Shown: positions 1 to 50,800 of the stretch, in pieces | Numbering within the stretch: position 1 is the first letter of the stretch | Layout of the letters: the number at the start of each line of letters is the position of its first letter | IMG/VR virus record: IMGVR_UViG_3300029985_000050 | Location: 1-56,130 of that record | DNA length: 56,130 nt | Reading direction: 5' to 3' (one strand) | DNA from: a virus | Position numbers and translations under genes: made by a program | The notes under the pieces: model-generated | Told to the model about the DNA's origin: nothing | Seen by the model: the letters and a program-made list of their open reading frames with translations, nothing else | Database searches by the model: none

Positions 1-1
1 C

Positions 2-157
2 GGGGCGGATGCTGACGACTTCGACAAATACTGCTCTCCGAACTTCAATGATTTTCGGAATAAAGCCAGTACGCTACTCCAGCTTTTAGAGCGCCAGCTC
101 GAGGTGGGGCTATTGTCTGGTTTTCTTGGAATTTTCCGCCCAAGGACTCAAAAATAA
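2..157 (+). CDS. 3' end of a cassette gene, unknown function (partial)
   Basis: An open frame enters from the left edge and runs 51 codons to a TAA at 155-157, ending in RPRTQK. The peptide has a mixed hydrophilic and leucine-rich composition (LLQLLERQLEVGLLSG) that looks like real protein, but no family is recognisable. It lies about 265 bases before the first attC site, so it is probably the gene or first gene of the leftmost cassette. The start is outside the window. Confidence 0.5.
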   Translation, partial: GADADDFDKYCSPNFNDFRNKASTLLQLLERQLEVGLLSGFLGIFRPRTQK

Positions 158-421
158 ATACAACTCCAAAAACAGACCACCAAGACCTTGAAGAAACTCT
201 ATCACAGGGTCCTCACTTATTTTTCCGAGGTTAGCTCTTCGATCACGCAGATACGTTCAGACACCCCAGAGCATTCAGAATCCACAGCCACTGCCTATAC
301 GCAAGCCCGTGGATACTCCAAGAGTTGTAGATACCGTTTACAAACAAAAGAAAAAAGCAAGTGAATTGCAGATAGATAGCCCACTTATTCACAAACATGA
401 TTCAACCCCTCCTGCAACCCC
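158..421 (+). other. Cassette segment without a confident gene
   Basis: No ATG-initiated gene is supported. One frame after the 155 stop stays open to 362 without an ATG. Another frame toward the attC reads a proline- and lysine-rich stretch (PVDTPRVVDTVYKQ) resembling the low-complexity linkers of the membrane proteins in the next cassettes, so this may be a decayed member of that family. I see no promoter or hairpin here. Confidence 0.4.
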
Positions 422-486
422 ACCTAACAATCCGCTTCCACCGGCGATTTGGCTTCGCCAAACGCGGTGAAGACGGAGCGTTAGGT
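422..486 (+). repeat. attC-like site 1
   Basis: Outer boxes acctaac (422-428) and gttaggt (480-486) pair. Inside them are an imperfect stem (ccgcttccaccg against cggtgaagacgg) with unpaired bases and a top hairpin TTTGGC-ttc-GCCAAA. This is the architecture of an integron attC: paired R and L boxes, extrahelical bases and a variable terminal structure. Site 4 has the same plan with a different but still complementary top stem. Confidence 0.85.
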
Positions 487-507
487 GGACGCCTACGCGG
501 CGCAGCG

Positions 508-548
508 ATGAAATGGAACAAACCATGAAAATAGCTGCAAATGAATAA
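508..548 (+). promoter_or_regulatory. Chain of two overlapping mini-ORFs leading into the 541 gene
   Basis: Directly after the attC, ATG at 508 opens MKWNKP, whose stop TGA (526-528) overlaps the ATG at 525. That opens MKIAANE, whose stop TAA (546-548) overlaps the ATG of the cassette gene at 541. No good Shine-Dalgarno is visible before 541, so termination-reinitiation along this chain is a likely route of translation. The arrangement recurs, with different mini-peptides, in the next cassettes. Confidence 0.55.
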
Positions 549-1431
549 CCGCAAAATAGCTGCAATTTTGATAGCTGCATTCGCATGGTCAGTACCCAAT
601 GCCTACGCACAAGAAAATAACCCCGAAAACAAACATGCAGATAGCGCCAGCCAATGGAAGGGTACTAGAGTCCATGTGCTTAAAGCAAACACGATTGTAC
701 CTCAAAAGCCTATCGCCAGGGTTGGCATACTCGCCGTTGACTCCCTCGTAATTAAGAATCCAATTTGCGTAGTCTTCAGTCCGACGATCATACCGCCTGT
801 CAAGATGGCCGATGAAGGCCCCAAGGCAGATAAGCAAAATTCCACCGCAAATGAGCCATTCTTTACAAAATGGAAAGATGTCATTGCCGCCCTCGGTATG
901 TTCGGTGCGCTGGGGGTTTCCCTCGGAGCCCTGTGTATCTCCATACGCGCTCTGCACTACACCGGCAACCTGTTCCGAGTCACACGAAACGGAGCTGCGT
1001 CGCAAATTAGGGAGAGCAAAAACCTTATTGGAATCACTTCGGATACTGCCAATAGGCAGCTTCGGGCTTACGTTGGAATCACCGATGTGCGAAGCTACGC
1101 CGACAAGGTGACGTTCGGCATTAGCAACTACGGGCAAACCCCGGCCCAAGATGTTCTGGTTTGGGCGAACTGTGGGGAAACTGCCTTGTCTACCGAAGAT
1201 CTCAAAACTTTTCGCGAGAATGATGTGTCTGCCGGAACTTTGTGGCCTGGAAATCTGACGCGAAGAGGTGTGGATCGGAATGGCCTCGAGAGCCCGTTTA
1301 CCTTTCGCGGTGTGCTCACCTACACCGATATTTTCAAAAAATCCCACACCACCACATTCCAATACTTCGTGATGGACATTCCTGGGATTCACAAATCCGG
1401 CCCCCACGACAAAGGAAACTCCTTCACATAG
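541..1431 (+). CDS. Cassette-borne secreted/membrane protein, paralog A
   Basis: 296 residues. It opens with a typical signal peptide (MNNRKIAAILIAAFA, probable cut after NAYA) followed by a low-complexity linker. A hydrophobic segment near residues 120-145 (GMFGALGVSLGALCISI) is a likely membrane helix. Then comes a domain with RQLRAYVGI, NYGQTPAQDVLVW and YTDIFKKSHTTTFQY. These motifs match a widespread uncharacterised bacterial membrane-protein family that I know only by pattern (RAYV, N-G-TPA, D-FG...TF). Related proteins follow at 1568, 2488 and 3404. The start is chosen for the signal peptide and its identity with the paralogs. Function unknown. Confidence 0.8.
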   Translation: MNNRKIAAILIAAFAWSVPNAYAQENNPENKHADSASQWKGTRVHVLKANTIVPQKPIARVGILAVDSLVIKNPICVVFSPTIIPPVKMADEGPKADKQNSTANEPFFTKWKDVIAALGMFGALGVSLGALCISIRALHYTGNLFRVTRNGAASQIRESKNLIGITSDTANRQLRAYVGITDVRSYADKVTFGISNYGQTPAQDVLVWANCGETALSTEDLKTFRENDVSAGTLWPGNLTRRGVDRNGLESPFTFRGVLTYTDIFKKSHTTTFQYFVMDIPGIHKSGPHDKGNSFT

Positions 1432-1449
1432 CAAAATGAACGAAATTAC

Positions 1450-1513
1450 ACCTAACAATGCCGTTCCTCCGGGATTCCGCTGCGCTCCACCCGGAGAACA
1501 GGCTCCGTTAGGT
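1450..1513 (+). repeat. attC-like site 2
   Basis: acctaac at 1450-1456 pairs with gttaggt at 1507-1513. The inner arms ttcctccgg and ccggagaa pair with a bulge. The whole 64-base site is identical to site 5, and so are about 20 bases after it, which points to recent copying of a cassette boundary. Confidence 0.87.
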
Positions 1514-1554
1514 GGACGCCTACGCGGCGCAGCGATTGATGAGATAGCTGCAAA

Positions 1555-1575
1555 ATGAAAGCAACAAATGAATAA
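1555..1575 (+). promoter_or_regulatory. Overlapping mini-ORF before the 1568 gene
   Basis: ATG at 1555 encodes MKATNE and its TAA (1573-1575) overlaps the ATG of the next gene at 1568 by eight bases. This is the same geometry as at 525-548 with a different peptide, which suggests that the overlap rather than the peptide is conserved. Confidence 0.5.
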
Positions 1576-2344
1576 CCGCAAAATAGCTGCAATTTTGATA
1601 GCTGCATTTTCATTTGCAAACGTCTACGGTCAAAAAAGCGGCAATGCTGATGACAAAGCAAATGGCGCACCCAATTCCAAACAAGTAGAGAAAAAAGGAA
1701 ATGATTCGAGCGATTACCGCCGCCACCATGTAGGTCAAGCCCCACTGTCTATCGAAGCGGTCGATACCCCAGTAGTCAAGATCGTAACCACGACAAATAC
1801 CGAAAACTGCCAGGAGAAAGAAAGCAACTACCCCTACTGCCGAATAAAGCAGTGGTTCGTGGACAACAAAGACCTGCTCTCGGGAATCGCTACGATTATT
1901 GCGGCAATTGGCGTCTGCATCAGCATTTTTGTTGCCCGAAACACGCAGAGTGTGGGACGTAGGCAGCTGCGCGCATATCTTGGAATTTCCGAGTTTGGTC
2001 TCAGCACCTCCTGCGTGATGTTCACCATTAAGAACTACGGATTGACGCCGGCAAAGAAAGTGCGCATTTGGTGTGATTGTCCCGATACAGAAAGATGGCC
2101 TGCGCTGATAAAGTGGCTTCCGAAGCACGGTATTTCCGACGGAGATCTCATGTGGCCCGGGGATACCTTGGACCGGAAAAGTGTTCGAGTCGGATTGACC
2201 GAGGAATTTTTTGCGAACGGTAAAATCAGCTACACCGATGTCTTTGGGAACCGGCAAGTGACGACATTCCAGTACTCGATTCAGAAAGGCCCTAGTGGGA
2301 TTCTTCGATGCGTTGCTCACACCAAAGGCAATTCCGCCACATAG
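1568..2344 (+). CDS. Cassette-borne secreted/membrane protein, paralog B
   Basis: 258 residues. The signal peptide MNNRKIAAILIAAF is encoded by nearly the same DNA as in the 541 gene, but the mature chain has diverged. A membrane helix lies near residues 103-120 (GIATIIAAIGVCISIFV), followed at once by GRRQLRAYLGI, then NYGLTPAKKVRIW and YTDVFGNRQVTTFQY. It ends GNSAT like its paralogs. Alone in its cassette between attC sites 2 and 3. Family function unknown; it probably has a soluble C-terminal domain after one membrane helix. Confidence 0.8.
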   Translation: MNNRKIAAILIAAFSFANVYGQKSGNADDKANGAPNSKQVEKKGNDSSDYRRHHVGQAPLSIEAVDTPVVKIVTTTNTENCQEKESNYPYCRIKQWFVDNKDLLSGIATIIAAIGVCISIFVARNTQSVGRRQLRAYLGISEFGLSTSCVMFTIKNYGLTPAKKVRIWCDCPDTERWPALIKWLPKHGISDGDLMWPGDTLDRKSVRVGLTEEFFANGKISYTDVFGNRQVTTFQYSIQKGPSGILRCVAHTKGNSAT

Positions 2345-2365
2345 CAAAACAAATGAACAAATCAC

Positions 2366-2430
2366 ACCTAACACGCGCCTTCCACCCGGATTCCGGCAAG
2401 CCGGAACCGTGTGAAGAGCGGGCGTTAGGT
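2366..2430 (+). repeat. attC-like site 3
   Basis: acctaac at 2366-2372 pairs with gttaggt at 2424-2430. The top of the structure is a clear hairpin, ttccggc-aa-gccggaa. The stem sequence differs from the other sites while the boxes and length stay constant, as expected of attC sites. Confidence 0.85.
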
Positions 2431-2456
2431 GGACGCCTACGCGGCGCAGCGATGAA

Positions 2457-2495
2457 ATGAACAAAGCAACAATGGAAATAGCTGCAAATGAATAA
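2457..2495 (+). promoter_or_regulatory. Overlapping mini-ORF before the 2488 gene
   Basis: ATG at 2457 encodes MNKATMEIAANE and stops with TAA at 2493-2495, overlapping the ATG of the cassette gene at 2488. A shorter ATG AAA TGA at 2452-2460 overlaps its start, again forming a chain. Confidence 0.5.
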
Positions 2496-3237
2496 CCGCA
2501 AAATAGCTGCAACTTTGATAGCTGCAATAGCGTCATCGGTACATTCCCAAGAGATAAGGGATGTTCACTATACTTCGCACATTACCGCACAGATAGCAGC
2601 AAAAGATACCGCAAACGATACCCAAACCCCCAATCATCCATCGAAGCGCGGAGATACGGCCAAGCGTCGCGAAGGAAATACCGATACAGGGGCCAAAAAT
2701 AATGATCCCAAGAAATCCGATGAACTTTTCCCAGCTGCAAATTTCCTCAAGGTGCTTGCTACAGACTATGGTAATGATATTCTGGCGCTCATCGCATTGG
2801 GGGCTCTCGCCGCTGGTATCTGGACTGCCTGGATTACTCGCACTAACGGAAATCGGCAACTTCGGGGCTACGTTGGTGTCGAGGATCTGATTTTTGCCGA
2901 TCCCCACACCACGCTCACAATTAAGAACTATGGGCAAACGCCCGCTAGTGATGTGAAAGTCTGGCTTGACTGGGGTTCTCCCTCGAAGGACTCTACTACG
3001 CTCAGAGGAGATCCTCAAGGGCAGGTATTTGAACGCGGAGTTATCAACCCTGCCAAAACCACTGCCTGTGCGCACCCGTGCAGAGGCCCAGTAACTGGAT
3101 TCTTTATCTATGGCACGATCAGCTACACCGACATTTTTGGCGAGAATCAAACAACTACTTTCCAATACATTGTCGGATACCCGCCCGGCAGGCACCCTAC
3201 CTGCACCGTCCATTCCGAAGGCAATTCCGCAACATGA
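2488..3237 (+). CDS. Cassette-borne secreted/membrane protein, paralog C
   Basis: 249 residues with signal peptide MNNRKIAATLIAAIASS. A polar linker precedes a membrane helix near residues 95-112 (ILALIALGALAAGIWTAW), then NRQLRGYVGVEDL, NYGQTPASDVKVWLDW and YTDIFGENQTTTFQY. It is the third copy of the same domain plan. The mature part is well diverged from its neighbours although the first 40 coding bases are almost identical, which suggests exchange or conservation of the header. It fills its cassette between attC sites 3 and 4. Confidence 0.8.
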   Translation: MNNRKIAATLIAAIASSVHSQEIRDVHYTSHITAQIAAKDTANDTQTPNHPSKRGDTAKRREGNTDTGAKNNDPKKSDELFPAANFLKVLATDYGNDILALIALGALAAGIWTAWITRTNGNRQLRGYVGVEDLIFADPHTTLTIKNYGQTPASDVKVWLDWGSPSKDSTTLRGDPQGQVFERGVINPAKTTACAHPCRGPVTGFFIYGTISYTDIFGENQTTTFQYIVGYPPGRHPTCTVHSEGNSAT

Positions 3238-3258
3238 CAAAACAAGTGAACAAACCCC

Positions 3259-3323
3259 ACCTAACAATCCGCTTCCACCGACGATCCCACTTCGTGGGAC
3301 GCGGTGAAGACGGAGCGTTAGGT
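3259..3323 (+). repeat. attC-like site 4
   Basis: acctaac at 3259-3265 pairs with gttaggt at 3317-3323. It matches site 1 almost base for base except in the top hairpin, which is TCCCAC-ttc-GTGGGA here and TTTGGC-ttc-GCCAAA in site 1. This compensatory change supports a selected fold. Confidence 0.87.
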
Positions 3324-3350
3324 GGACCCTCCGGGCGGGATTTAGCTGCA

Positions 3351-3407
3351 ATGAACGAAATAGCTGCAATGGGAATAGCTGCAATGAACGAAATGAACAA
3401 ATCGTGA
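3351..3407 (+). promoter_or_regulatory. Overlapping upstream ORF before the 3404 gene
   Basis: MNEIAAMGIAAMNEMNKS is encoded from 3351 and its TGA (3405-3407) overlaps the GTG start at 3404. The DNA repeats the tagctgcaatg unit seen in the headers of the other cassettes, so it is probably a rearranged version of the same header. Confidence 0.5.
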
Positions 3408-4300
3408 AAATAGCGGCAATACTGCTCATCGCAATTTCTATTGCTGGTGCTGATTCAATACCACGCATTAAAGACTCCATCCCGAAAGACTCTGTACGCA
3501 ATCCCAAGATGGAAAGCGCTGTCCACAATCAGCCCGGCACTGATAAACACCCAGCGAAGGTGGATTCTGTGCCGCCCCGTCCCCGGGTAGTTCTCGGCAG
3601 TCCACAGCGCAGCGTAAATTCTACCACAAAACACGATTCCATTGAGGGCCAGAGTAACCAAGTAGCAAATAGCGGCAAAAAGATAGACTCTCCTTGGGCA
3701 CTCATTTGGGTAGCTGTTGCTGCCATCGCGGCTTTGATTCCGGCGCTCTTTGGCCCAGCTCCCATTATCGCTGCGTTCAGATGGCTCAACTCCCGAAATC
3801 GCCGAGGTATTCCCAAGGCTGGCGCTGCCGACCAACAACCGATTAGCACAGCCCCGCCGCAAATTATTACCGCTGCCACGCAGCGACTTCCCAACCCTAC
3901 CGCGCAACAACCGATAATTCAGATTTTGGACATTCTTTACAAAAGAAACAGTACAGTCCTCACGATCACAAACCAAGGTTTGGCCCCAGCTAGATCCGCT
4001 GAAGTCTGGGCATCCTGCGGAGAGGTCGCACAGACTACCGAGGTTCTCCAAAGAATTCCCGGGGAGCCTCGTCACCTCGGTGTAATCGCGCCAGCCAGTG
4101 TCTGCACGCTCAATGCACCCAAAGAAGAGGATCTTCACCTCCCCTACTTCGTGTACGGACGAGCCACCTACGTTGATTCTTTTGGGGTGCCCCATCTCGA
4201 TACTTTTCAATGCGTAATCACCGGCATCGAATCCGGATCTTGGAATTTCCATTCCGAAGGCAATTCCACCACACAGCAAAATGAACGAAATTCTACCTAA
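3404..4300 (+). CDS. Cassette-borne secreted/membrane protein, divergent paralog D
   Basis: 298 residues from GTG. Signal peptide MKIAAILLIAISIAGA, then a proline-rich linker and a strong hydrophobic segment near residues 100-128 (ALIWVAVAAIAALIPALFG). The C-terminal domain keeps NQGLAPARSAEVWASCG and YVDSFGVPHLDTFQC but lacks the RQLRAYVG strip of the other three, so it is a remote member. The TAA stop (4298-4300) lies inside the first box of attC site 5. The start is chosen because it begins the signal peptide and overlaps the upstream ORF stop. Function unknown. Confidence 0.75.
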   Translation: MKIAAILLIAISIAGADSIPRIKDSIPKDSVRNPKMESAVHNQPGTDKHPAKVDSVPPRPRVVLGSPQRSVNSTTKHDSIEGQSNQVANSGKKIDSPWALIWVAVAAIAALIPALFGPAPIIAAFRWLNSRNRRGIPKAGAADQQPISTAPPQIITAATQRLPNPTAQQPIIQILDILYKRNSTVLTITNQGLAPARSAEVWASCGEVAQTTEVLQRIPGEPRHLGVIAPASVCTLNAPKEEDLHLPYFVYGRATYVDSFGVPHLDTFQCVITGIESGSWNFHSEGNSTTQQNERNST

Positions 4301-4358
4301 CAATGCCGTTCCTCCGGGATTCCGCTGCGCTCCACCCGGAGAACAGGCTCCGTTAGGT
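4295..4358 (+). repeat. attC-like site 5
   Basis: acctaac at 4295-4301 pairs with gttaggt at 4352-4358. The site is identical to site 2 over its full 64 bases. It contains the stop codon of the preceding gene, and a second frame stays open straight through it into the next ORF. Confidence 0.87.
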
Positions 4359-4379
4359 GGACGCCTACGCGGCGCAGCG

Positions 4380-4574
4380 ATGAAATGGAACAAAGCAACA
4401 ATGGATTTTGAACTATTCCGGTATGAATCCTCAGCATTATTCCAATTACTCATGAAACTAGACAAGAAGAAGCCTGGGAAAGACGATTTGAATGTTTGGA
4501 GTTCCCCTGATTGGAACGCATTCAACGTCGCCGTATTGGAGTTATTGTGCATTGCTGAACGACAGCTCAGATGA
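4380..4574 (+). CDS. Small cassette protein, unknown
   Basis: 64 residues if read from the ATG at 4380, where the usual header mini-ORF (MKWNKAT) is fused in frame; 57 residues if started at the ATG at 4401 (MDFELFRYESS). The frame remains open upstream through attC site 5. The sequence is hydrophilic with a helical leucine-rich end (FNVAVLELLCIAERQLR). It has no signal peptide, unlike the preceding cassette genes, and matches no family I recognise. Confidence 0.5.
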   Translation: MKWNKATMDFELFRYESSALFQLLMKLDKKKPGKDDLNVWSSPDWNAFNVAVLELLCIAERQLR

Positions 4575-4663
4575 CATCCAGAACCTTCAGCAACCCCCAA
4601 AAACCTATTGCCGAACCTACCCACGGAAAGATTTGGAGCCACAAATCAACGATCCACATTTAA
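4571..4663 (+). CDS. Possible 30-residue ORF overlapping the 4380 gene
   Basis: ATGA at 4571 overlaps the TGA of the preceding gene and encodes a 30-residue basic peptide ending in STIHI. Only the coupled start supports it. Confidence 0.2.
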   Translation: MTSRTFSNPQKPIAEPTHGKIWSHKSTIHI

Positions 4664-4695
4664 AATCTCCCAGTTCGTCGGTGGAATGAACAAAT
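4663..4695 (+). repeat. 33-base direct repeat, copy 1
   Basis: Matches 5318-5350 with one mismatch. Copy 2 sits just before attC site 6 in the position normally taken by a cassette end, whereas copy 1 runs directly into a header-like sequence with no attC between. This marks a probable lost cassette boundary. Confidence 0.7.
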
Positions 4696-4712
4696 CATGG
4701 TAATGGCTGCAA

Positions 4713-4775
4713 ATGAATAACCACAAAATAGCTGCAATGAGCAGCCGAACAGCAAACAACAAAGGAACGAAATGA
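4713..4775 (+). promoter_or_regulatory. Header remnant ORF overlapping the 4772 gene
   Basis: MNNHKIAAMSSRTANN... is encoded from 4713. Its first bases are almost the same as the signal-peptide header of the 541, 1568 and 2488 genes. Here it stops after 20 codons and its TGA overlaps the ATG at 4772, so the header has been turned into an upstream ORF. Confidence 0.5.
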
Positions 4776-5059
4776 GCCACTCCACTTTTCGCGAAGCAAT
4801 CCTTCCGTACCACATCCAAGCAAATTCGGACGGAACCCACACGGTGAGGAATCGCCAAAATGCGCCGATCTTCGAAAATATCCGATTTGAAAAATTGCCG
4901 CCGAAAACTGCCGCCAAAATTTCATTCAATGGGTCTGAAGACATCTCGAGCGTGTATCTGTACTGGGGAGGTGCTCCCCCGAAAACCAAGAAGCTCAAGG
5001 CGGAGTACTTTCTACGCCTTGCTCTGCTGTGCGATCTTTCGGTCACACACGAGGCGTAA
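4772..5059 (+). CDS. Small cassette protein, unknown
   Basis: 95 residues, with a plausible ribosome-binding site (aaagga, 6 bases ahead of ATG). The sequence PYHIQANSDGTHTVRNRQN suggests a beta-rich N-terminus, followed by KISFNGSEDISSVYLYWGG and a helical end. It looks like a small protein family of cassettes and mobile elements, but I cannot name it. Its last 48 bases overlap the convergent gene at 5012. No signal peptide. Confidence 0.55.
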   Translation: MSHSTFREAILPYHIQANSDGTHTVRNRQNAPIFENIRFEKLPPKTAAKISFNGSEDISSVYLYWGGAPPKTKKLKAEYFLRLALLCDLSVTHEA

Positions 5060-5314
5060 TGCTTCCCAGAAGGAAATGGCTCCAGGAATGTCCTTCGCAT
5101 TTTCGCAAGCCAGCGCGATGGAGTCGGCGGGAACGTCGTGATTTTCCCACTCCTCCATCACACGCTTTTTGCCGAAGTGCTCCAGGAGAATGTCGGCATT
5201 CTTTGTTTTTCCGCAACCCTGCGGGCCCCAGATCAAGACGCCACGGACTTTCACATCCTTGGGATTCTTGTGGCCTGGCTTCTTCGGGGAATAGGTCTCA
5301 AAGGGACTTCCCAT
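5012..5314 (-). CDS. Small P-loop protein in reverse orientation
   Basis: 100 residues. VRGVLIWGPQGCGKTKNADILLEHFG contains a clear Walker A loop (GPQGCGKT, residues 30-37). The rest (ADSIALACENAKDIPGAISFWEALRL) has no obvious Walker B, so it is either a minimal or a truncated ATPase. It resembles short ATP-binding proteins encoded in prophages. It is the only gene in the array that opposes the cassette direction, and so would need its own promoter; none is clear. Function unknown. Confidence 0.6.
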   Translation of the reverse strand: MGSPFETYSPKKPGHKNPKDVKVRGVLIWGPQGCGKTKNADILLEHFGKKRVMEEWENHDVPADSIALACENAKDIPGAISFWEALRLVCDRKIAQQSKA

Positions 5315-5317
5315 TTC

Positions 5318-5350
5318 AAATCTCCCAGTTCGTCGGTGAAATGAACAAAT
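5318..5350 (+). repeat. 33-base direct repeat, copy 2
   Basis: Second copy of the repeat at 4663-4695, placed immediately upstream of attC site 6. It overlaps nothing coding. Confidence 0.7.
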
Positions 5351-5363
5351 GCAAGAAAATCAC

Positions 5364-5428
5364 ACCTAACGCCGCCTGTTCACGGTGGCCGGACGCAGTC
5401 CGGCCACCGTGAACAGGCGGCGTTAGGC
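5364..5428 (+). repeat. attC-like site 6, perfect palindrome
   Basis: acctaac at 5364-5370 and gttaggc at 5422-5428. Positions 5365-5394 and 5398-5427 are exact reverse complements (30 bp) around a three-base loop gca, with no unpaired bases. Known attC sites normally carry extrahelical bases that fix recombination polarity; this one does not. On the minus strand it is followed within a few bases by gattttctt, so it may also terminate the packaging operon. It is the last site before the phage genes. Confidence 0.75.
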
Positions 5429-5472: not shown

Positions 5473-5703
5473 TCACCCCGCTCGAAGGGAGTTCGAGGTG
5501 GTGCTGGTGGCCCTGTCGGACTTCAAAACGGGCTTGGGAGGGCTCGCAACTTCGTCATCGGTCCTGAATCTGGCCCGCTCCACGACCTCGATATCGACTT
5601 TCGAAGGTGCGTCGGAGTTGATGTGCAGCGAAATGGAGCCGTGATGCATGGATTTTGCCCTTTTGACGATGAATTCTAGCGTTTCGTCGCTGATTTCGGC
5701 CAT
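5473..5703 (-). CDS. Small phage protein, DUF2292-like
   Basis: 76 residues. The core LEFIVKRAKSMHHGSISLHINSD...VDIEVVERARF has the pattern of DUF2292 phage proteins, which have a short helix then a Y/HGSI-type strand and a basic end. Its ATG directly abuts the portal stop on the minus strand, so it is the last gene of the packaging operon here. Head genes would normally follow, but the cassette array begins instead. Confidence 0.55.
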   Translation of the reverse strand: MAEISDETLEFIVKRAKSMHHGSISLHINSDAPSKVDIEVVERARFRTDDEVASPPKPVLKSDRATSTTSNSLRAG

Positions 5704-7518
5704 TTACTCCCCGTTTTCCTTCAAGATGGTCTCCAGAACGCCCTTGAGGTCGCCTCCGTCGTGCCGGAACGCGAGCAACGCCACCAAAAGTGCATCCGGA
5801 TCGTCCTGGTGGTCCATCAAGGCCTTCCGGAGGGCGTCGATTCGGTCTCCGGTGATTCGATTCGACCTTCCGGGCTTGTGGACCGCGCTCGCGCCGGGCT
5901 GGGTGACGCCCTTCTTCTGCTTCCCGCCGATGCTCCCTGGTGTGGACCTGGTTTTCGTCGCTTCCTTGAGGTTCACGGAGGGTGCCGCGGCGGTTTTGGA
6001 GGCGGTGGCGTGCGGAGTTGTCTGCCCACCCTCGGTCGTTCCCGAGTTTCCATCTTCTTCGCCCTGCACCGTTCCTGGAAGGGGCTCGCCGTCGTTGTCC
6101 AGGCCGAGCTGGAGGAAGAACGGATTCGGCGGCGGGTTGTTCGCCTCCTCGGCGGTGAGGCTGGTGTTGTTCGAGTACCGCCCGCCGTACCGATTCCGGC
6201 GGATCTCCAGGGCGGACAAAATGCCATTGATGAAATCTAGACTGTCTGCTTGAGACGTTTTATAGCGCACGTCGGCCGCGTCCTTCTCATTCATGCTCCA
6301 GACTGGGCGGAACTTGATCGCGTACTCGTCCGGGTCGACGTCGGGAAGGGCGGAAGCCCCAATCCACATGGTCAGGGCCTCCACCGGGGCGCGCAGGTAG
6401 AGTCCCTGTAGGGCCTCGACGCTGTCGTAATACTGGCGGGCATCTCCCTCGCCCGTCGCATTCATCCCGGCAGCGCCGCGGCCAAACAGGAGCGAGACGG
6501 GGATGTTCACGTCCGCGCTCACCCGCATCATCATCCGATCCACCACGTCGGCCACGCCTGCGAACTCGAGCTTGTCGCGGGTGTAGTCCTCGTCCTCGGC
6601 CAGCATCACGCCGTGGAGGTAGTTCTTGGAGAGCTCGATGTTCGCCATGCGCTGTTCGATCGCGCCGTAGTCCTTGGCGAGAAGGAGCTGCTTCAGGTTC
6701 TTGATCTTGTACTTTCCGATCACCGACTCCTGCATCAGGTTCGAGATCGCGTTCCAGGAAAGCCCCATGTTCGACAAGCTGTCGAACGCAGCCTGGATGA
6801 CTCCAAACCCCCAGTAGCGGCGGTAGATGTCCATACCCGGGTAGACCCGATCGGGCGTTGGGTCACCACGCCACTCCACCACGCGTGTCCAGTGGATCTC
6901 GTAGGGCGGGCCGTAGACGCGCCGGACGGTGAAGTATGCGGGGAGATCGTAGCGCACTGACTCCGGGTCGGTGTCCAGGTCCGTAGGCATGATCCAGATC
7001 TCGGCGGCCGAGTGGGTGCGCAGGCCCAGGAGCTTCTGCGGGTTCTCGGGGTCGAACTTGAACGGCGCCGAGAGGGGCTTGCCGTCGTCCCAGAGTAGGA
7101 TGGTGAGCGCCCCGCCGAAGAGCCGGGTCCACTGCAGGGCCTCGCCGAAGTGCTTGCGTACCTTCAGCCGATCCATCTGCTTCACGATCTTCCCGTCCGG
7201 ATCGCCGTCGATGTCCCACCCGTTGCGGGTGGCGTCGTCGGCCAGCATCTTCACGATCCGCTTCCCCAGCCCGTCGCCGATGTAGAAGGCGGAGAGCTCG
7301 GGGAAGGTGAGCATGTACGGCGGGTTGACCTGGTTTGCCGTCGTGCGGTCCTTGCCGCGCACGCCGGACCCTGTCACGAAGTTCCGGAAGCTGTCGTTGT
7401 GGAGGTACACCTCGCGGAGAATCCCCTCGTTGACGCGCGCGCCCAACGAAGGGCGACGCTGCATCGCCTTTGCCGCCGCGGCTTGCTCCGCCTGGATGAC
7501 TTCGAGTTCGTTGGGCAC
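5704..7518 (-). CDS. Portal protein (DUF1073 type)
   Basis: 604 residues from GTG. It forms the dodecameric ring at the capsid vertex through which DNA is packaged. Family signs are SAFYIGDGLGKRIVKMLADDATRNGW near residue 80, WTRLFGGALTILLWDDG near 130, ESVIGKYKIKNLKQLL near 270, and VNIPVSLLFGRGAAGMNATGEGDARQYYDSV near 345, all typical of DUF1073-family portals. The C-terminus is low complexity. It lies downstream of both terminase genes, as expected. The ribosome-binding sequence gagg lies about 10 bases ahead. Confidence 0.92.
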   Translation of the reverse strand: MPNELEVIQAEQAAAAKAMQRRPSLGARVNEGILREVYLHNDSFRNFVTGSGVRGKDRTTANQVNPPYMLTFPELSAFYIGDGLGKRIVKMLADDATRNGWDIDGDPDGKIVKQMDRLKVRKHFGEALQWTRLFGGALTILLWDDGKPLSAPFKFDPENPQKLLGLRTHSAAEIWIMPTDLDTDPESVRYDLPAYFTVRRVYGPPYEIHWTRVVEWRGDPTPDRVYPGMDIYRRYWGFGVIQAAFDSLSNMGLSWNAISNLMQESVIGKYKIKNLKQLLLAKDYGAIEQRMANIELSKNYLHGVMLAEDEDYTRDKLEFAGVADVVDRMMMRVSADVNIPVSLLFGRGAAGMNATGEGDARQYYDSVEALQGLYLRAPVEALTMWIGASALPDVDPDEYAIKFRPVWSMNEKDAADVRYKTSQADSLDFINGILSALEIRRNRYGGRYSNNTSLTAEEANNPPPNPFFLQLGLDNDGEPLPGTVQGEEDGNSGTTEGGQTTPHATASKTAAAPSVNLKEATKTRSTPGSIGGKQKKGVTQPGASAVHKPGRSNRITGDRIDALRKALMDHQDDPDALLVALLAFRHDGGDLKGVLETILKENGE

Positions 7519-7965: not shown

Positions 7966-9276
7966 TCAAGAGTACATCACACGGGCGGTCTTCTCCTCCT
8001 CGGGGAAGAACACCTCGCGCAGGAGAGAGGCGGCGGAGTCCGGCACGTCGTCGGGCTCGGCGTCCTCGGTGTAGTCCGCGATCTGCATCATCGCCTCCGG
8101 GTCGGAGTCGTTCGCCCAGACGATCTGGTGCCAGTGGTGGCCCAGATAGTCGTGGATCTTCTCGTGCTTCTTCTGGCTCTCGTGGTAGGACTCGCATACG
8201 AGCCAACGCTCCTCCTCGAACGTCTCGAACACGCGGGCCAGCATGCCCTTGTCGGAATTCGTCTCCAGGTGGAGCTCGTGGCAACCGCGCCGCTCCAGCT
8301 CCACCATGATGGCGGGCTTGGCCTTCTCAGCCGAGCAGGCCCACTTCTTGACGAACAGCTGGAGGCGTCCGTCCTCCCGATTCGACCCGATGGTGAGGGC
8401 CGTGGTGTCTCGTCCCCCGTAGGCGGCGTCCAGCTGGGCGACCTTGCGGAAGTTGTTCTGCTGCCAGGGTCCCATCACGGGGTTCTGGAACTCCATGTCG
8501 TCGGCGTTGACGTGCTCGAGTTCGTAGTTGGCCGCCCACATGGCCTTGGTCATGGTGGCTTTTTTCAACTCGATCTCTTCGGGGGAAAGGATCCCGGTCG
8601 AGAAGACGTCGAACTTCATGGGGTTGATGCCCATCCCCTTCAGCATCTCCCAGGCATCTTCCTTGTGCCACGGGGTCCCGACCACACGGGCGAAGCGCCC
8701 TGGGTCCAAGATGTTCGTCAGGATTTCCTGCAGGTTCGCACGCGTGCTCTCCCGCTTGGCCCTGGAGTACCGGTCCTTCATCGAGATGGCGTCGTCCACG
8801 AGGATCGTGTCGTAGTGGGAGCCGACGGGGACGGTGTCGATACCGTAGGCGTCGAGGCTTCCTTCCTTCGTGATGGATCCCTTGAAGTTGAACGTGAGCC
8901 GCCCGTCGCGGTTCACGATCTTCTCCGGGTAGAACCCGTGGAAGGCGCGGAACAGCTCCTGGATCAACTCGTGCTCCATGTAGAGCCCGATGGTCTTCAG
9001 GGAGTCGTTGGCGACGGACCATGTCTCCCGCACCAGCGCGACGCGGTCGTCGGGGTGGAGGAGGAAGTTCCGGATGGAGCCGATTTCGGTGACGGCGGTC
9101 GTCTTGTACGCGCCACGATGGGCCTGGATCGCCGTGTGCGTCTGGGGGTCCCAGACGGACTTGATCCAGTCCGAGTGCATGGGGGTGAGCTTCTTCTTGC
9201 CGACCAGGTGGCCGATCAGGTGTGGGTATTTCCCAAGGCGGCGGAGCTGGTCAGGCGAGTAGAAGTCGCATCTCAA
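7966..9276 (-). CDS. Terminase large subunit
   Basis: 436 residues. It is the ATP-driven DNA packaging motor and nuclease. A Walker A-type loop lies near residues 52-60 (QAHRGAYKTTA) and Walker B near 157 (YDTILVDDAIS). The coupling stretch is RFARVVGTPWHKED, and the nuclease domain starts near 282 with QLDAAYGGRDTTALTI, which carries the first metal-binding Asp. The start overlaps the small-subunit stop by four bases. Confidence 0.93.
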   Translation of the reverse strand: MRCDFYSPDQLRRLGKYPHLIGHLVGKKKLTPMHSDWIKSVWDPQTHTAIQAHRGAYKTTAVTEIGSIRNFLLHPDDRVALVRETWSVANDSLKTIGLYMEHELIQELFRAFHGFYPEKIVNRDGRLTFNFKGSITKEGSLDAYGIDTVPVGSHYDTILVDDAISMKDRYSRAKRESTRANLQEILTNILDPGRFARVVGTPWHKEDAWEMLKGMGINPMKFDVFSTGILSPEEIELKKATMTKAMWAANYELEHVNADDMEFQNPVMGPWQQNNFRKVAQLDAAYGGRDTTALTIGSNREDGRLQLFVKKWACSAEKAKPAIMVELERRGCHELHLETNSDKGMLARVFETFEEERWLVCESYHESQKKHEKIHDYLGHHWHQIVWANDSDPEAMMQIADYTEDAEPDDVPDSAASLLREVFFPEEEKTARVMYS

Positions 9277-9773
9277 GGGAGGGATCCGGCTTCGGAGAAG
9301 ATCTGGCTTGCTTCACGGCGAGCCTCGTCGGAAACTCCACGGGCACGGCCAGCGTCCTCGCCGCGGTACTTCGCTCGGTTCGCCTTCAGAACTTCCTTGA
9401 GCAGACCACCGTCGTAGCGGGTGACGTAGCCAGCGAGTCCGCCGTCCTTGGTGAACACCGGCTCGTCCCACCCGAGGATCCCGCGCTTGAAGGCGGCGTC
9501 TTCTGCGACGTCGATTCCGATGTCCCATGCCTGGGAGAGCTTGAGGGAGAATTCGGGGTCCGCCTCGGCTTTGGCTCGGACATCCTGCGGGGTGAGGGCA
9601 GTTCCTTTGAGCGCGTCCTCGCGGATCGGCATCTCGGAAAGCTGGCGAAGGTACAAATCGAAGCCGGTGGGCTTGGTTGGGGGCGGTGTCTTTGCGGGCG
9701 CGATGGGGGCGGGGCTCGCGGCAGGCGCCGGAGACGGGGTGGGCTCGGAAGACTTTTTCCTGGGAGGTGCCAC
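9273..9773 (-). CDS. Terminase small subunit-like protein
   Basis: 166 residues from the GTG at 9773. A Pro/Ala/Lys-rich N-terminus precedes a conserved part ending DGGLLKEVLKANRAKYR, close to the LLxxLLKxxRPExYR end of small terminases. It overlaps the large subunit. A longer frame from 9809 starts inside the -35 box of the promoter and is rejected. The -10 box ends eight bases before this GTG, so the message may be leaderless. Confidence 0.7.
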   Translation of the reverse strand: MAPPRKKSSEPTPSPAPAASPAPIAPAKTPPPTKPTGFDLYLRQLSEMPIREDALKGTALTPQDVRAKAEADPEFSLKLSQAWDIGIDVAEDAAFKRGILGWDEPVFTKDGGLAGYVTRYDGGLLKEVLKANRAKYRGEDAGRARGVSDEARREASQIFSEAGSLP

Positions 9774-9780
9774 GAGAAAG

Positions 9781-9809
9781 AGCGTACTTTGGCACGGCAA
9801 ATTTGTCAA
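9781..9809 (-). promoter_or_regulatory. Sigma70-like promoter of the packaging operon
   Basis: On the minus strand TTGACA (9809-9804) is followed after 17 bases by TACGCT (9786-9781). Spacing and boxes are near consensus. The expected start site falls almost on the GTG of the small terminase gene. Confidence 0.7.
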
Positions 9810-34783: not shown

Positions 34784-36901
34784 ATGCCCAAAAAGTCCGT
34801 CAAGGCAAAGGTGCCCACGGCACCCCCGCCGAAGGCCCCACCGGCTGAGACGAAGTTGAGCGAGAAGCTCCTGGAGAAGTTCCACGAGAAGCTCCAGGAG
34901 TCCATGCTCGACGATCCCGAGATCATCGACGACCACCACTTCGCGCCCACGGATGCCGCCGGGGCGAAGTCTCTTGGGCTGTACGTCGCCAAGGCTGGTT
35001 TCAAGATTCCCTACTTCACGCCGTCTGGCGAAGAAACTGGGTTTTTTCGTTTTCGCTATCTAGAGGATACAAGGTCGGGCTTCGAAAAGCAAACGGGAAC
35101 CAAGCCGCAACGCTACGGACAGCTCGGCGGGACGCTGAACGAGGCCTACTTCTCGCCAAGCCTCCACTGGGAAGAAGCCCTCCAAGACTCTGCGATCGAC
35201 ATCTGGATCACCGAGGGCGAGCTCAAGGCCGCGTGCGCCACCACCCAGGGGATCCCGTGCATCGGGCTGGGTGGGGTCTGGTGCTTCAAGAGCACCAAGC
35301 GGGTGATGCACCTGATCCCCTCGCTCGAGCAGATCAACTGGGTCGGACGCAGGGTCTACATCTGCTACGACTCCGACGCCTCCTCGAACCCCGACGTGAT
35401 GGCCGCCGAGGTCTGCCTCGCCAAGGAACTCACCCGCCTCTCCGCCTTCCCCACCATCGTGCGCCTGCCGGCCAAGATCGACGGACACAAGAACGGCCTG
35501 GACGACTACCTCGTGGAGCGCGGGGTCGCGGGCCTGGAGCAGTGCCGCAAGGAAGCCGTCCCGTTCGCGGACGCCCAGGTGCTCCACCGGCTGAACGAGG
35601 AGGTCGTCTACGTTCGCGACCCTGGCTTCGTGGTCCGTCGCTCCGACTTCCAAAAGCTCGCCCCCACCGCGTTCGTCTCCCACGCCTACTCCGATCGCCA
35701 CATCACGGCCCTGACGGAGAAGGGCACCCTGACACGGAAGTCCGCCGCGGACGCCTGGCTCAAGTGGCTCGGCCGTGCGGCGACGCAGTGCTTCACCTAC
35801 GCCCCTGGCCAGCCCGAGGCCGCGGTCACCTCCGACGGGAAGCCTGCCCTCAACGCCTGGCGTGGGTGGGGGTGTGCCTCGGTGGAGGGCGACGTGACCC
35901 CGTGGCTGAACCTCATGGACTTCATGTTCGAAGGGTTCCCAGAGTCGCGCACATGGTTCGAGCGGTGGCTCGCCTACCCCATCCAGTTCCCCGGCGCCAA
36001 GCTCGCCACCGCGGTGATTCTGTGGGGCCGCACCGGCGGCACGGGAAAGTCGTTCATCGGCGAGACCATGCAACGGATCTACGGCTCGAACTACGACAAG
36101 ATCGGGAACACCCAGCTCGCGGGGGCGTTCAACGGCTGGGCCGAGAACAAGCAGTTCATCATGGGGGAGGAGATCTCCGGGATGGACAAGCGGGGTATGA
36201 TGGACCGGCTGAAGGAAATGATTACCGAGGAGCGGGTCCAGCTCAACATCAAATACCTCCCCGGCTACTCGATCCCGTCCCACGTCAACTACTACCTCGT
36301 CTCGAACCATCCTGACGCGCTCCAGCTGGACGAGACCGATCGCCGATGCTTCGTCCACGAGACCCCGGCCACGCCGCTGTCCGACGAGTTCTACCTCTCC
36401 TACCGCCACTGGCTCAAAGAGTCAGACGGCAAGGGCCCGGCCGCATTGCGCTACTACTTCGAGCACCTGGACCTCGGCGACTTCAACCCCCAGGCCCGCG
36501 CGCTGAAGACCGCCGCGAAGACGGAGATGGTTTCCGACGCCATGAGCGAGCTGGAGCGTTGGCTCCACGACCTGCGCCGTGACCCGGACACCGTCCTGCG
36601 GGTGGGATCCACCGTGGTGAAGCATCGGTTCTGGACGGCCAACGCGCTGCTCGAGATGTTCGACCCCGATGGCCGGAAGAAGACATCCTCCGGCGGGATC
36701 ATCCGGGCGCTCAAGCGTTCGGGAAGCGTGCCCGTCGGGATCTTCACCACGAAAGACGGAGTCAACCCGCTGTGGGACATGCGCCCAGGCGCGACGGTGG
36801 CGGACCCCGCGAAGGCCTACGACGCGGAGCGTGGGTTCCTACGGCCTTCCGAGCCAGTTGTGCGTGCTGTGAAATCTTCAACCAAAGGAAAAGCGAAGTG
36901 A
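34784..36901 (+). CDS. Primase-helicase (DUF3854/TOPRIM-like plus SF3-type ATPase)
   Basis: 705 residues. The N-terminal part has ITEGELKAACATTQGIPCIGLGGVW near 142 and YICYDSDASSNPDV near 190, the E-G-E-KA and D-SD pattern of DUF3854/TOPRIM-like primase modules. The C-terminal part has Walker A WGRTGGTGKSFIG near 415, then FIMGEEISGMDKRGMMDRLKEMIT and NYYLVSNHPDALQLDETDRR, as in phage SF3/DUF5906 helicases. The last residues KSSTKGKAK are encoded by the ribosome-binding leader of the next gene. Confidence 0.85.
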   Translation: MPKKSVKAKVPTAPPPKAPPAETKLSEKLLEKFHEKLQESMLDDPEIIDDHHFAPTDAAGAKSLGLYVAKAGFKIPYFTPSGEETGFFRFRYLEDTRSGFEKQTGTKPQRYGQLGGTLNEAYFSPSLHWEEALQDSAIDIWITEGELKAACATTQGIPCIGLGGVWCFKSTKRVMHLIPSLEQINWVGRRVYICYDSDASSNPDVMAAEVCLAKELTRLSAFPTIVRLPAKIDGHKNGLDDYLVERGVAGLEQCRKEAVPFADAQVLHRLNEEVVYVRDPGFVVRRSDFQKLAPTAFVSHAYSDRHITALTEKGTLTRKSAADAWLKWLGRAATQCFTYAPGQPEAAVTSDGKPALNAWRGWGCASVEGDVTPWLNLMDFMFEGFPESRTWFERWLAYPIQFPGAKLATAVILWGRTGGTGKSFIGETMQRIYGSNYDKIGNTQLAGAFNGWAENKQFIMGEEISGMDKRGMMDRLKEMITEERVQLNIKYLPGYSIPSHVNYYLVSNHPDALQLDETDRRCFVHETPATPLSDEFYLSYRHWLKESDGKGPAALRYYFEHLDLGDFNPQARALKTAAKTEMVSDAMSELERWLHDLRRDPDTVLRVGSTVVKHRFWTANALLEMFDPDGRKKTSSGGIIRALKRSGSVPVGIFTTKDGVNPLWDMRPGATVADPAKAYDAERGFLRPSEPVVRAVKSSTKGKAK
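36871..36901 (+). repeat. 31-base direct repeat / RBS leader, copy 1
   Basis: Identical to 38556-38586. It encodes the KSSTKGKAK tail of the primase-helicase and, in the same bases, supplies ttcaaccaaagga as ribosome-binding leader for the GTG at 36898. Confidence 0.85.
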
Positions 36902-38586
36902 GATACCTGTCGTTGTTCAGCGGGATCGAGGCGGCAAGCGTCGCCTGGGGTCCGCTGGGCTGGAAGTGCGCCGCCGTGGCGGAGATCGAGCCGTTCCCGT
37001 GCGCGGTGCTTCGGGAGCACTACCCTTCGGTGCCGAACCTGGGCGACGTGACGAAAATCACTCGCGAAGTGGTGCGGGGCCTTGGGAAGCTGGATGTCGT
37101 GATCTTCGGATCGCCATGCCAAGATTTGTCTGTCGCAGGAAAACGTGAGGGAATCGGAGGTGCTCGCAGTGGTCTCTTTTTTCAAGCCATCGAAATCGTC
37201 AAGTGGGCCCACGAAGAGTGCGGTGCCCGTTTCGCCCTCTGGGAGAACGTCCCAGGTGCCTTCTCCAGCCAGTCCGGAAGAGACTTTGCAGAAGTGGTTG
37301 GGGCGCTATCTGGCGCCGGAGTCGAAGTCCCCGAGCACGGCTGGGGCTCGGAAGGCGCGGCGGTGGGGCCGAACGGCCTCGTCGAGTGGAGCGTGCTGGA
37401 CGCGCAATGGTTCGGAGTGGCGCAGCGGCGCCGTCGCGTGTTCGCTCTCCTCGACTTTGGAGATTGGGCCGGCAGACCCCCGATTCTCCTTGAGCCCGAA
37501 AGCCTGCGCCGGGATTCTCCGCCGAGCCGAGAAGCGGGGCAAAGCCCTGCCGGAACTCTTGCGTCGCGCACTTCTGGCGGTGGCCTCCCAGGAACTGACG
37601 AGGCCTGCGAAGGATACGTCACGCCCTGCCTCACCGCCAGCCGCCTCCAAAGGATCGGCGAAAGCACCGGCCAGGATCCGGTAGCTGCGACGTTCCGGCA
37701 GTCCTCCATGAAGGGCCGTGGGACGATTGGCTGGGACGACTCCGGTGTCGCGAAGCCTGTGAAAACTCAGGTGGACGGCCAGATGGTCTGCTTCGGCGGG
37801 AACAACACCGCTGGCCCGATCGACGTGGCGACGGCACGGAACGCCAGCGCCAGCGCCAGCGGGCGGCTGGACTTCGAGAGCGAGACGTTCGTGGTTGCTC
37901 CGGAGGTTGCGGCCACGCTGCGGAGCGCGAGCGACTCTCCCAAAGCCCATGGAAAGGTCAACGGCACGGATCGGGCAACCATCGTCGCTTTCCACCACAA
38001 TGCCCAGGCCGCGCAGCTTCCGACGACGACGGATACGCCCAAGACGGCGGCGCTGACCTGCCCACAGGGGGCGGCGGTCGCTCAGTGTGCGACCGGCGAC
38101 GTCTTCCACACGCTCCATGCGGAAGGGTTTGACGCTTCGGAGGACGGTACCGGGCGTGGTGGTGGTGCGGTTGCCGTGGCCCTGCGGGGGCGGGAAGGCG
38201 GCGCAGCCTGCGAACTCGGCGATGAGGTGGGCTTCACGCTGCGGGCGTCGTCCGGAGGCGGTGACAAGCCCCATGTCCTCTGCCCCACGGTCGCCCAACC
38301 GGTGCGCACCAACCCCCGGAACAACAGCGACGGCGGGATGGAGGCGCGCCAGCACATCTACGGGGACGCCCAAGTCCGTCGCCTCACGCCCACGGAATGT
38401 GAGAAACTTCAAAACTTCCCCACAGGGTACACGAAGATCCCGTGGCGTGGGAAGCCCGCAGAACTCTGCCCGGACGGCCCACGGTACAAGGCCTTGGGTA
38501 ACTCCATGTGTACCGCCGTCATTTTTTGGATCGGCCAAGCGATCGAGCATGCTGCGAAATCTTCAACCAAAGGAAAAGCGAAGTGA
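36898..38586 (+). CDS. C5 cytosine-specific DNA methyltransferase
   Basis: 562 residues from GTG. Motif I SLFSGIEAASVAW (residues 4-16), IV GSPCQDLSVAGKR near 71 with the catalytic Cys, VI ENVPG near 115, VIII QRRRR near 175, IX VRRLTPTECEKLQNFP near 494 and X ALGNSM near 531. The target-recognition region between VIII and IX is about 300 residues, long and rich in low-complexity stretches. It probably protects phage DNA from host restriction. Flanked by the 31-base repeat. Confidence 0.95.
   Translation: MRYLSLFSGIEAASVAWGPLGWKCAAVAEIEPFPCAVLREHYPSVPNLGDVTKITREVVRGLGKLDVVIFGSPCQDLSVAGKREGIGGARSGLFFQAIEIVKWAHEECGARFALWENVPGAFSSQSGRDFAEVVGALSGAGVEVPEHGWGSEGAAVGPNGLVEWSVLDAQWFGVAQRRRRVFALLDFGDWAGRPPILLEPESLRRDSPPSREAGQSPAGTLASRTSGGGLPGTDEACEGYVTPCLTASRLQRIGESTGQDPVAATFRQSSMKGRGTIGWDDSGVAKPVKTQVDGQMVCFGGNNTAGPIDVATARNASASASGRLDFESETFVVAPEVAATLRSASDSPKAHGKVNGTDRATIVAFHHNAQAAQLPTTTDTPKTAALTCPQGAAVAQCATGDVFHTLHAEGFDASEDGTGRGGGAVAVALRGREGGAACELGDEVGFTLRASSGGGDKPHVLCPTVAQPVRTNPRNNSDGGMEARQHIYGDAQVRRLTPTECEKLQNFPTGYTKIPWRGKPAELCPDGPRYKALGNSMCTAVIFWIGQAIEHAAKSSTKGKAK
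38556..38586 (+). repeat. 31-base direct repeat / RBS leader, copy 2
   Basis: Second copy of 36871-36901, encoding the C-terminal tail of the methyltransferase and serving as leader for the GTG at 38583. Confidence 0.85.
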
Positions 38587-47835: not shown

Positions 47836-50800
47836 TCAGGATTTGAGGAGGGCGACAGATGCTGTCGTGGCGGAAAGCCAAGTGATCGCGGCTGTGTAGT
47901 ACTGCGAAAGCGTCATGTCCGCAGCTAGAAGGACGGCGGATCCAGAGGCCACGCCAGCGGTCTTTCCGTTTTGGTAGAACGTGTACCCGGAGATGGTGAA
48001 TGTCACGGCAAAACTTGTCGTGCCTTGCTTGAAAATAACCCGCGAGGTTGACCCGATCAGAGGATTGGAGAACGTGATCGTGGTCGCAGCAGTTAGGGCG
48101 CCGGGCACCCCGGATGCTCCAATGAGTACCGTCCCCCCATTCGCGAGGTTTGCGGAGATCGCTGTCCCGACCGCGATGGTTTGGACGGCTTGGGATAACT
48201 GATCGGAGGTCAATCCGCCATTTGCATCGCGCACGGCTACCGAGGATGCCGTGCCTGTCGCGGAGGCCGGGACCGCGACTGGCGTCGCTGCAGACCCTGT
48301 AAGGTTTCCCTCCACGCTGTTGGCCGCAAGGTTCGCTTGTTTCGCCAGAGTGACCGTCCCCGCTGGGATCGTCATGGCGAGCGACCCCGCCGTATTGGTC
48401 GCGTCGCCCGTGTGTGCTGGCTCCATCGCGGCGGTGATGACTGTGCTGGTGGCGTCGATGATCTGCCCCGAGGTGTTGGTCCCGACGAAAGCCTTGGAGA
48501 CTGGTACTGCCGCGCCGTTGACCTGCGAGGCATTGATCGTGCCCGTCACCTGCCCGATGGGGAGGGAGAGCACGGAGAGCGTCGTCAGTGTCGAGTTCGA
48601 CGTGGCCGTGATGTTCGCGGCTGTGCCAGTGGTGCTCTGGTTCAGGGTCGGCACATCCGCGGCGACCATCGCACGAAAGGATGGGTTTCCCGCGGATCCG
48701 TTCGGCGCCGCGTAGAAGTAGTTCGCCGTCTGACTCCCGAACGTTGTGTTCAGGTCAGAGCCTACCGCGATGGACGGCGTACCCAGGGCCGTGAGGTTCT
48801 TCAGGAGCCCTGTGGCAAGCCCGGCCAGACTGACGCCGTTGATTCGGTTGACCGCAGTCGCGTTGATCGTCCCCGTGACGTCGCCAAAAAAGGAGGGAAT
48901 GTCGCTGTTCACGATGGCCCGGAGGCTCGGGACCCCGCTGGCCCCGTTGGGCGTGGCCCAGAAGAGGTTCTCGGCGGCGCTGGTGAAGGCTGGAACATAG
49001 GCGGCGTACGAAAATGTCCCGGATCCATTGTTCGTCAGGGCACCAGCCGTGTTCGCCAGGGAGCCGAACGAGGTCACGTTGGCCGGAATGCCGGTCAGCG
49101 ATCCCCACGCCCAGGTGGTCGGGAAGGGCTGCCATGACTTGTCGCCGCGCCAGTACTGCGCCGTGGTGCCAGCGGTGATCGCTGGTTCTGCCCCCACCTG
49201 CGCCGCCGTGTAGTCGCCGGTCGTGGCCGCGACCGCACCAGTACGCCCGAAGACGGAGGTCACCGCACCGGTCGGGGTTGTCCAGACCCACGCGGAACCG
49301 TTCCAGTTGGGGTACCCGACCGTCAAAGATCCAAGCGAGTGCCCCAACAATCCTGAGACGATGGGGCCTGGATAGCTCCCCGAGAGATCCCCAGAAGCCG
49401 TCCCCGATGGCGGGAAGGATGCCGTGGTCTGTGTGGTGACCAACCACTCCGCGATCTGGTCCATGGTCAGCGTGTTGCCCCCGGCCGCGCTCCACTGGAC
49501 GGACTCCTGAAGGATGTTCGCCGCCGTGGTATTGACCGTCGCGACCTCGTCCACGTTGAGGCGCTGGTAGATCGGGTGCCCCTGGTAGTAGCCGCCGTCA
49601 ACCTCCAGGAAGCCCTTGACCTTGACTGTAGCCGTTGCGCCGATGGCGGTCTGTGCGAAGACGCGGAGGTCCGTCCGGAATTTCACCGCACCGCCCGCTT
49701 GCAGGTAGGGAACCGTGGTCCCGGCAAGCGTCCAGGAGACCAGTGTCGTGCCGCCCATGGAAACGGTCTGGTTCAGCGTGTTGGCGAGCGTGGCCCAGGA
49801 TCCAGTACCATCCCATTCAAGCGCGTAGACGAAGCCGGGCCCCTGGTTCGCGCTCGGGATCGTCGGAATGGAGGGCGTGAGGCTGGTCAGCGTGGTTGTG
49901 GCGACCGTGATCGGCGTCGAGCTGGAGTAGATCGCACCGCCCGATCCGCCGCCTCCCCCGCCACCAGATACGCGAGCCGAGTCCGCATAGAGCGCCCACC
50001 CCGAGCGTTTCGCCGTGTCCGCGATGTGGGAGGCGCGGGCGGAATCGACATCGAAGGCGGACGGCGAAACGAGAGATCCGGTTCCCGACACGAGCTGAGA
50101 GGACGTACCGCCAGTGGTCGCGTAAGCCTGTGCGGAAATCATCCCTGTCGGGGTAATCGAAATCGGCGTCCGTTGGGTCCCACCAACCAAGCTCGTCAGG
50201 GAAAGATTGCTGCCGGTGGCCATGAGCTGGAATGTCCAGGCTGATCCAGTCGGAGCAGGGTCTTGAATGTTCACGTCGGGGCCCGCGCCAATGGCATCAG
50301 ACGCCGTGCGATTGGCGGTCAGCACGATACCGGTAACCGAATTGGAGAACGTCGCTGAAGTCCCTCCAAGCGGGCCAGTTAGTGTTCCGCCCGACAAAGG
50401 CAGGTAGCGCCCGATAAGCGTCCGCAGGGCCGAGGAGGTGTCCGCCAGCAGGATGCGCGCGAGGGCCATGGAATCGGCCTGGAGGGTCCGGAGCGTGGTT
50501 GCGGTGTCGGAGATCAGCATATCGACCTGCCCCGCCGTCTGCCAGCCCTGGGAGTTCGCGGCGAGGCTGTCTCCGATGAGGGGGGATGCCTGGGCGGAGT
50601 CCAGGTAGTACCCCGCGTAGTCGCTCCGCTGAGGCACTACAGGCCCAGTGCGCCCGGCGAACGAGGAGACGCCTCCGCCCCCGCCACCGCCCGTGATCGG
50701 CACGCTGGTGGCGCTGGTAATGCGCCCGAAGGAGTCCACTGTGCCCTGGAAGACATGGGTCGCGTCCCCGTACGCCCCCGGCGTGACGCCGGAGTAGTTG

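Follow-up and report, generated by a model that had tools for sequence, protein, structure and literature searches.

The stretch of DNA analyzed here, below called the window, was an entire IMG/VR record, a linear fragment of 56,130 bp with one end falling inside an array of attC-form sites. To the right of this array, genes of a phage packaging operon were found on the minus strand, in the transcription order terS (terminase small subunit, 9273–9809; phrog_4044, 2e-11), terL (terminase large subunit, 7966–9276; phrog_38, 9e-42), an unknown gene, a portal protein gene of the DUF1073 type (5704–7518; phrog_146, 5e-88; PF06381, 8e-65) and a small phage gene encoding 76 aa (5473–5703), located between portal and array. 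Plus-strand replication genes came next, with minus-strand baseplate genes (51757–56012) at the right end of the window. The GC content was 0.49–0.52 in bases 1–5000 and mostly 0.55–0.69 further right, and a tRNA scan and an Rfam search of the window gave no tRNA and no Rfam match.

The array contained six sites within 422–5428, each 64–65 nt long with RYYYAAC and GTTRRRY ends, in full agreement with what had been reported in a reading made from the sequence only. They were located at 422–486 (site 1), 1450–1513 (site 2), 2366–2430 (site 3), 3259–3323 (site 4), 4295–4358 (site 5, identical in sequence to site 2) and 5364–5428 (site 6), all in plus cassette orientation, with a complementarity between the R'' and R' boxes of 7/7 in sites 1–5 and 6/7 in site 6. 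For scoring, we used a covariance model (R1) trained on nine known attCs only, these being from class 1 cassettes and from the published phage CALIN of MW202573. Over 95 kb, comprising the window and its relatives, the top-ranked matches were sites 4, 1, 2 and 5 (E of 5e-4 to 0.035; site 4, the closest match to known attCs, 5.3e-4, site 1, 0.014, and sites 2 and 5, 0.035 each), and this check, using the kind of model that the earlier reading had named for a refutation, thus placed four of the six sites ahead of all else. All these matches were on the minus strand, corresponding to the folded bottom strand if the cassettes are read from left to right. The four sites scored 17.8–24.8 bits, as compared to 15–16 bits for accepted attCs not used for training (blaOXA and a TJE1 candidate), with the attested blaOXA attCs outside the training set at 15.6–15.9 bits and thereby lower than each of the four. 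Sites 3 and 6 fell below the threshold of the model, with site 3 still folding canonically (z = −5.2; site 1, z = −5.8).

The folds of sites 1–5 had an R stem, an unpaired central spacer and an L stem, with a G following R'. An extrahelical T and G could be read off the folds on the R''–L'' arm, as T-N6-G in sites 2, 3 and 5 and as T-N7-G in sites 1 and 4; the T-N6/7-G form of such bases has been named previously (PMC2727003, PMC3053210), with both located on the R''–L'' arm (PMC2727003). The pattern CCTAACGN5TSTTC-N16-44-GAAN7-GTTAGG gave five matches in the window versus none in 100 shuffles. A second covariance model, made from the phage sites, picked up attC-like sites in certain Acidobacteriota genomes, one of which had another such site nearby, and also matched a site immediately ahead of blaGES-19 in the class 1 array of a plasmid integron. 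Judged by sequence and predicted fold, the six sites are attC sites, which for site 6 holds by way of its forms in the related contigs L004 and L005, the folds of which likewise displayed an unpaired spacer with extrahelical T and G.

In the window itself, and in contig L001, site 6 was a perfect palindrome with 30-bp arms, having no bulges, no extrahelical bases and no spacer; this form did not fold as an attC and alone would not qualify as one, while in L004 and L005 this site had the bulges of a normal attC. The palindrome may have arisen by one arm being copied over the other, as in template switching within a hairpin, whereby the extrahelical bases would have been removed. In published work, attC mutants that lack extrahelical bases and have their spacer paired show very poor recombination (PMC2727003), from which the window form of site 6 is predicted to be nearly dead, and a site in that state would be predicted to freeze the border with the phage.

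The attC sites delimited cassette A (1–480, cut off by the record end and closed by site 1), cassette B (481–1507, with an ORF at 541–1431 of 296 aa), cassette C (1508–2424; ORF 1568–2344, 258 aa), cassette D (2425–3317; ORF 2488–3237, 249 aa) and cassette E (3318–4352; ORF 3404–4300, 298 aa), all on the plus strand. Cassettes B–E encoded four homologous proteins, with 26–40% identity to the first, having a signal-like N-terminus, a membrane segment and a conserved C-terminal part, and being coded opposite to the late-gene strand. The cassette proteins had no match that counts among Pfam, NCBIfam, PADLOC, PHROG and PDB sequences, tblastn against phages and plasmids found none, and a profile of the family found no relatives in IMG/VR. 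A weak AlphaFold model of the cassette D protein suggested a membrane helix followed by a beta domain; a Foldseek list for a cassette protein was set aside on account of its AlphaFold pLDDT of 49.

Cassette F (4353–5422) was composite, with plus-strand ORFs up to 4574 and at 4772–5059, together with a P-loop ORF at 5012–5314 on the minus strand, in the direction of the late genes, that matched phrog_14685 at 8e-12. The ORF at 4772–5059 differed from its counterpart in L005 by 2, 2 and 14 bases at codon positions 1, 2 and 3, respectively, which indicates that it is coding and under purifying selection. The leader of the P-loop ORF recurred ahead of late-direction ORFs in L005 and in L044, a contig of a different phage, and on the basis of this shared leader some cassette genes may be expressed alongside the late genes. 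A 39-bp leader with AACTGGGAGATTTnAA-ATG was seen to precede late-direction ORFs in cassettes of different phages (window 4657–4695 and 5312–5350; L044:636–670; L005:5824–5863). We infer that the cassettes are of benefit to phage or host.

With regard to the position of the array, its last attC ended 44 bases short of the stop codon (5473) of the minus-strand small gene following portal, which confirmed that the array ends just before the packaging operon and that the packaging genes stop after portal and one small gene, with no head genes at that place in the window. The sequence-only reading had left two options, being either insertion of the array into a phage late region or a prophage abutting a chromosomal integron. 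For the genes beyond the array, which that reading had proposed to look for, we drew on related contigs, of which nine shared the portal (at least 95% identity) and fourteen the baseplate gene. One of these, the 44-kb contig G005, was 100% identical to the window across the last 11,180 bases and 99.97% identical across another 19 kb, and continued from the baseplate genes with an additional 11.7 kb encoding tail, sheath, major capsid protein, a structural protein and the head maturation protease, ending at an additional attC just before the head protease. The strain variant G014 (L028) ran 157 bases further, and in it the start of cassette E was fused to this head-side attC (96.5% identity to window 3306–3477). 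At the head side, a plain attC closed the array and was separated by 130 nt from the protease gene. The overlap with G005 and the junction of L028 to a window cassette together place the array between portal, with its small following gene, and the head protease.

As read from these contigs, the array sits inside a myovirus-type late region with phage late genes on both flanks, having terS–terL–portal upstream and protease–capsid–sheath–tape measure downstream on the same strand. In POR1 and MSO-5, which are distant relatives, the portal gene overlaps with the protease gene, and the array thus breaks a normally tight gene pair. The option of an inserted array was thereby borne out. The other option, with the window spanning a border between prophage and chromosomal integron, could draw upon the window alone ending in the array without adjoining head genes and upon the shift in GC from 0.63 to 0.50 at the border; such a border would however cut the head operon in two, neither an integrase nor an attachment site was found, and the capsid and protease genes beyond the array, with the head-side junctions in L025, L028 and L034, refute it, so that we rejected this option as extremely improbable.

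The assemblies were contigs from short-read metagenomes, each of which broke off within the array or at its border, and the whole array was spanned by no single contig, with both flanks known from separate overlapping contigs. Reads of a bacterial integron could in principle have been joined to phage contigs during assembly. The portal-side junction was however found in the window, L001, L004 and L005, which are independent contigs having strain-level differences, and the head-side junction was found, again with strain-level differences, in L025, L026, L027, L028 and L034. This recurrence of the junctions in related phages, which the earlier reading had asked for, makes an assembly artefact hardly credible. 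Four of the head-side contigs (L025, L026, L027 and L034), from different samples, all started at the identical base, namely the C that follows CCTAA in the head-side attC, at the cut point of the integrase (AA^C). Should this shared start reflect a branch in the graph, a variant without CCTAA at this position has to exist. At about 150–197 of L025, directly before the head protease gene and between the array and the capsid genes, a terminator-like hairpin (GGCCCAGAG...CTCTGGGCCTTTTTT) was spotted by eye, which was absent from the list of a consensus scan.

No integron integrase (TIGR02249) was found in the window, no tyrosine recombinase (PF00589) in the window and 15 related records, and neither an attachment site nor a lysogeny integrase in the window and related records of this phage. 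With six attC sites and no match to TIGR02249 or PF00589 in the part of the array covered, the array corresponds to a CALIN (at least two attC sites with no intI nearby), and no complete integron, with intI and attI, was found in the part covered by the contigs. As the window lacks the left part of the array, intI and attI of a complete phage integron might lie among cassettes outside the contig coverage. The head-side end, with its plain attC, 130 nt and protease gene, did however not have attI or intI at the usual start of an array, which together with the lack of any IntI or PF00589 match in 15 related contigs makes a complete integron a very unlikely alternative, although slightly less so than either a prophage border or an assembly artefact.

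Searches for the host gave no match to the exact cassette-leader sequence in GTDB genomes, and the only match to the attC-form pattern was in a MAG of the Thermoanaerobaculales (L045, JARFRM010000030.1), which carried an attC-like array of another type, with IntI-like gene fragments elsewhere in the genome. Among 396 Acidobacteriota genomes we found a few attC-like sites but no relative of the portal, and hence claim no host; none of the host searches identified an IntI-bearing host.

The related contigs also revealed variant junctions. In L003 the phage flank entered site 4 instead of site 6, with the sequence matching site 6 for the 69 bases before the R box and for 8 bases into it, and then matching site 4 for all of the 34 remaining bases. 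Sites 4 and 6 have in common only the 8-base R-box block CCTAACGC, and the L003 sequence is the product expected of an attC × attC deletion of cassettes E and F. In L028, cassette E began at the head-side attC instead of at site 4; here the two attCs are alike also beyond the R box, so that homologous recombination may also have produced the junction. The contig L005, from a diverged strain, had site 6 and part of cassette F in common with the window and then a different ORF. L044 represented a different phage, with 53% and 57% amino acid identity in portal and TerL, respectively, and with a divergent form of the 76-aa gene at the same place. In this phage an attC directly followed the homologous small gene, with 65 bases identical to site 3; the match to site 3 of the window plus its flanking sequence extended over 88 bases with 95.5% identity, as compared to about 70% identity in the late genes.

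These junctions bear upon whether the array could be an inert relic, rearranged solely via homologous recombination between similar cassette ends and with no involvement of an integron integrase. That explanation would agree with the lack of an integrase in the phage, the common leaders and attCs among the cassettes, including the identity of sites 2 and 5, the likeness of the L028 partners beyond the R box, and the present palindromic state of site 6. It is at odds with the junction partners of L003 having merely 8 bases in common, all in the R box, with different phages having an almost identical attC at one and the same position, and with the extrahelical bases and spacers being retained in all sites other than site 6. 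We thus consider an inert relic unlikely, albeit the least unlikely of the alternatives, and regard it as probable, with good confidence, that the array is a CALIN within the late region, between portal with its small gene and the head protease, that is shuffled by host integron integrases in trans.

We infer action of a host IntI in trans as the simplest mechanism. When the phage is in an integron-carrying host, the host IntI would most likely bind the phage attC sites on their folded bottom strands and could recombine them among themselves, with cassettes in free form or with host attC or attI sites, and recombination at 5'-RYYYAA^C would then add, remove or reorder cassettes. In the assay of Qi et al. 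2023 (PMC9892861), IntI1 recombined five of the six phage attCs tested. The proposal of the sequence-only reading that a phage carrying such an array would be a vehicle for cassettes was strengthened by L003, L028 and L044, transfer to a bacterium being a hypothetical step in it. In a wider sense, and with slightly less than an even chance in our judgment, this environmental phage lineage might permanently have, in its late operon between portal and head protease, an integrase-less attC entry point at which host integrases keep inserting, removing and rearranging cassettes and which is shared among phage genera, with the phages being a moving reservoir in the cassette metagenome.

CALINs have been published in virulent phages (PMC9892861), namely Tetrasphaera phage TJE1, Pseudoalteromonas phage PH101/H101, Polaribacter phage P12002L and Myoviridae sp. 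MW202573, with which the present array shares attC sites and cassettes without an integrase in a phage genome. Those CALINs were each from a single genome, whereas here variants with recombinant junctions were found, together with an attC at the same place in a second, diverged phage; moreover, the array interrupts the portal–protease junction, while the matching sites of MW202573 lie in an early region. Sedentary chromosomal and class 1 integrons are alike in attC architecture, cassette orientation and short cassettes with mostly unknown ORFs, but differ from the present array in that here no intI or attI was found, the carrier is a phage and the array opens with an attC that is fused to phage DNA. 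Parts of integrons in a phage genome are also known as fragments from temperate phages (V. anguillarum p16 and an E. coli P1 isolate; PMC9892861), but these have intI and lie in prophages, whereas no lysogeny integrase was found here. With regard to PMC9892861 and the open-access literature, the array inside a virion-assembly operon, the natural recombinant junctions and the attC shared by different phages at the same locus appear to be new. Phage-borne attC arrays were previously known from single genomes and their natural movement was an open question, to which the present variants contribute products expected of attC × attC recombination within a phage population. Phage carriage of cassettes between bacteria thereby becomes directly testable, and the locus would, if host IntI is responsible, be a case of host recombination machinery reshaping a virion-assembly operon.

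In some strains the small gene between portal and array was split by an HNH endonuclease gene (PF13392, 1e-8; L003:5650–6483, and the same in L002). Elsewhere in the window, near-identical 40-bp repeats (95%) were seen at 36862–36901 and 38547–38586 in the replication region, near the ends of two plus-strand ORFs, and a 72-nt repeat (83%; 47371–47442 and 48451–48522) was common to two large adjoining minus-strand genes near the tail region.
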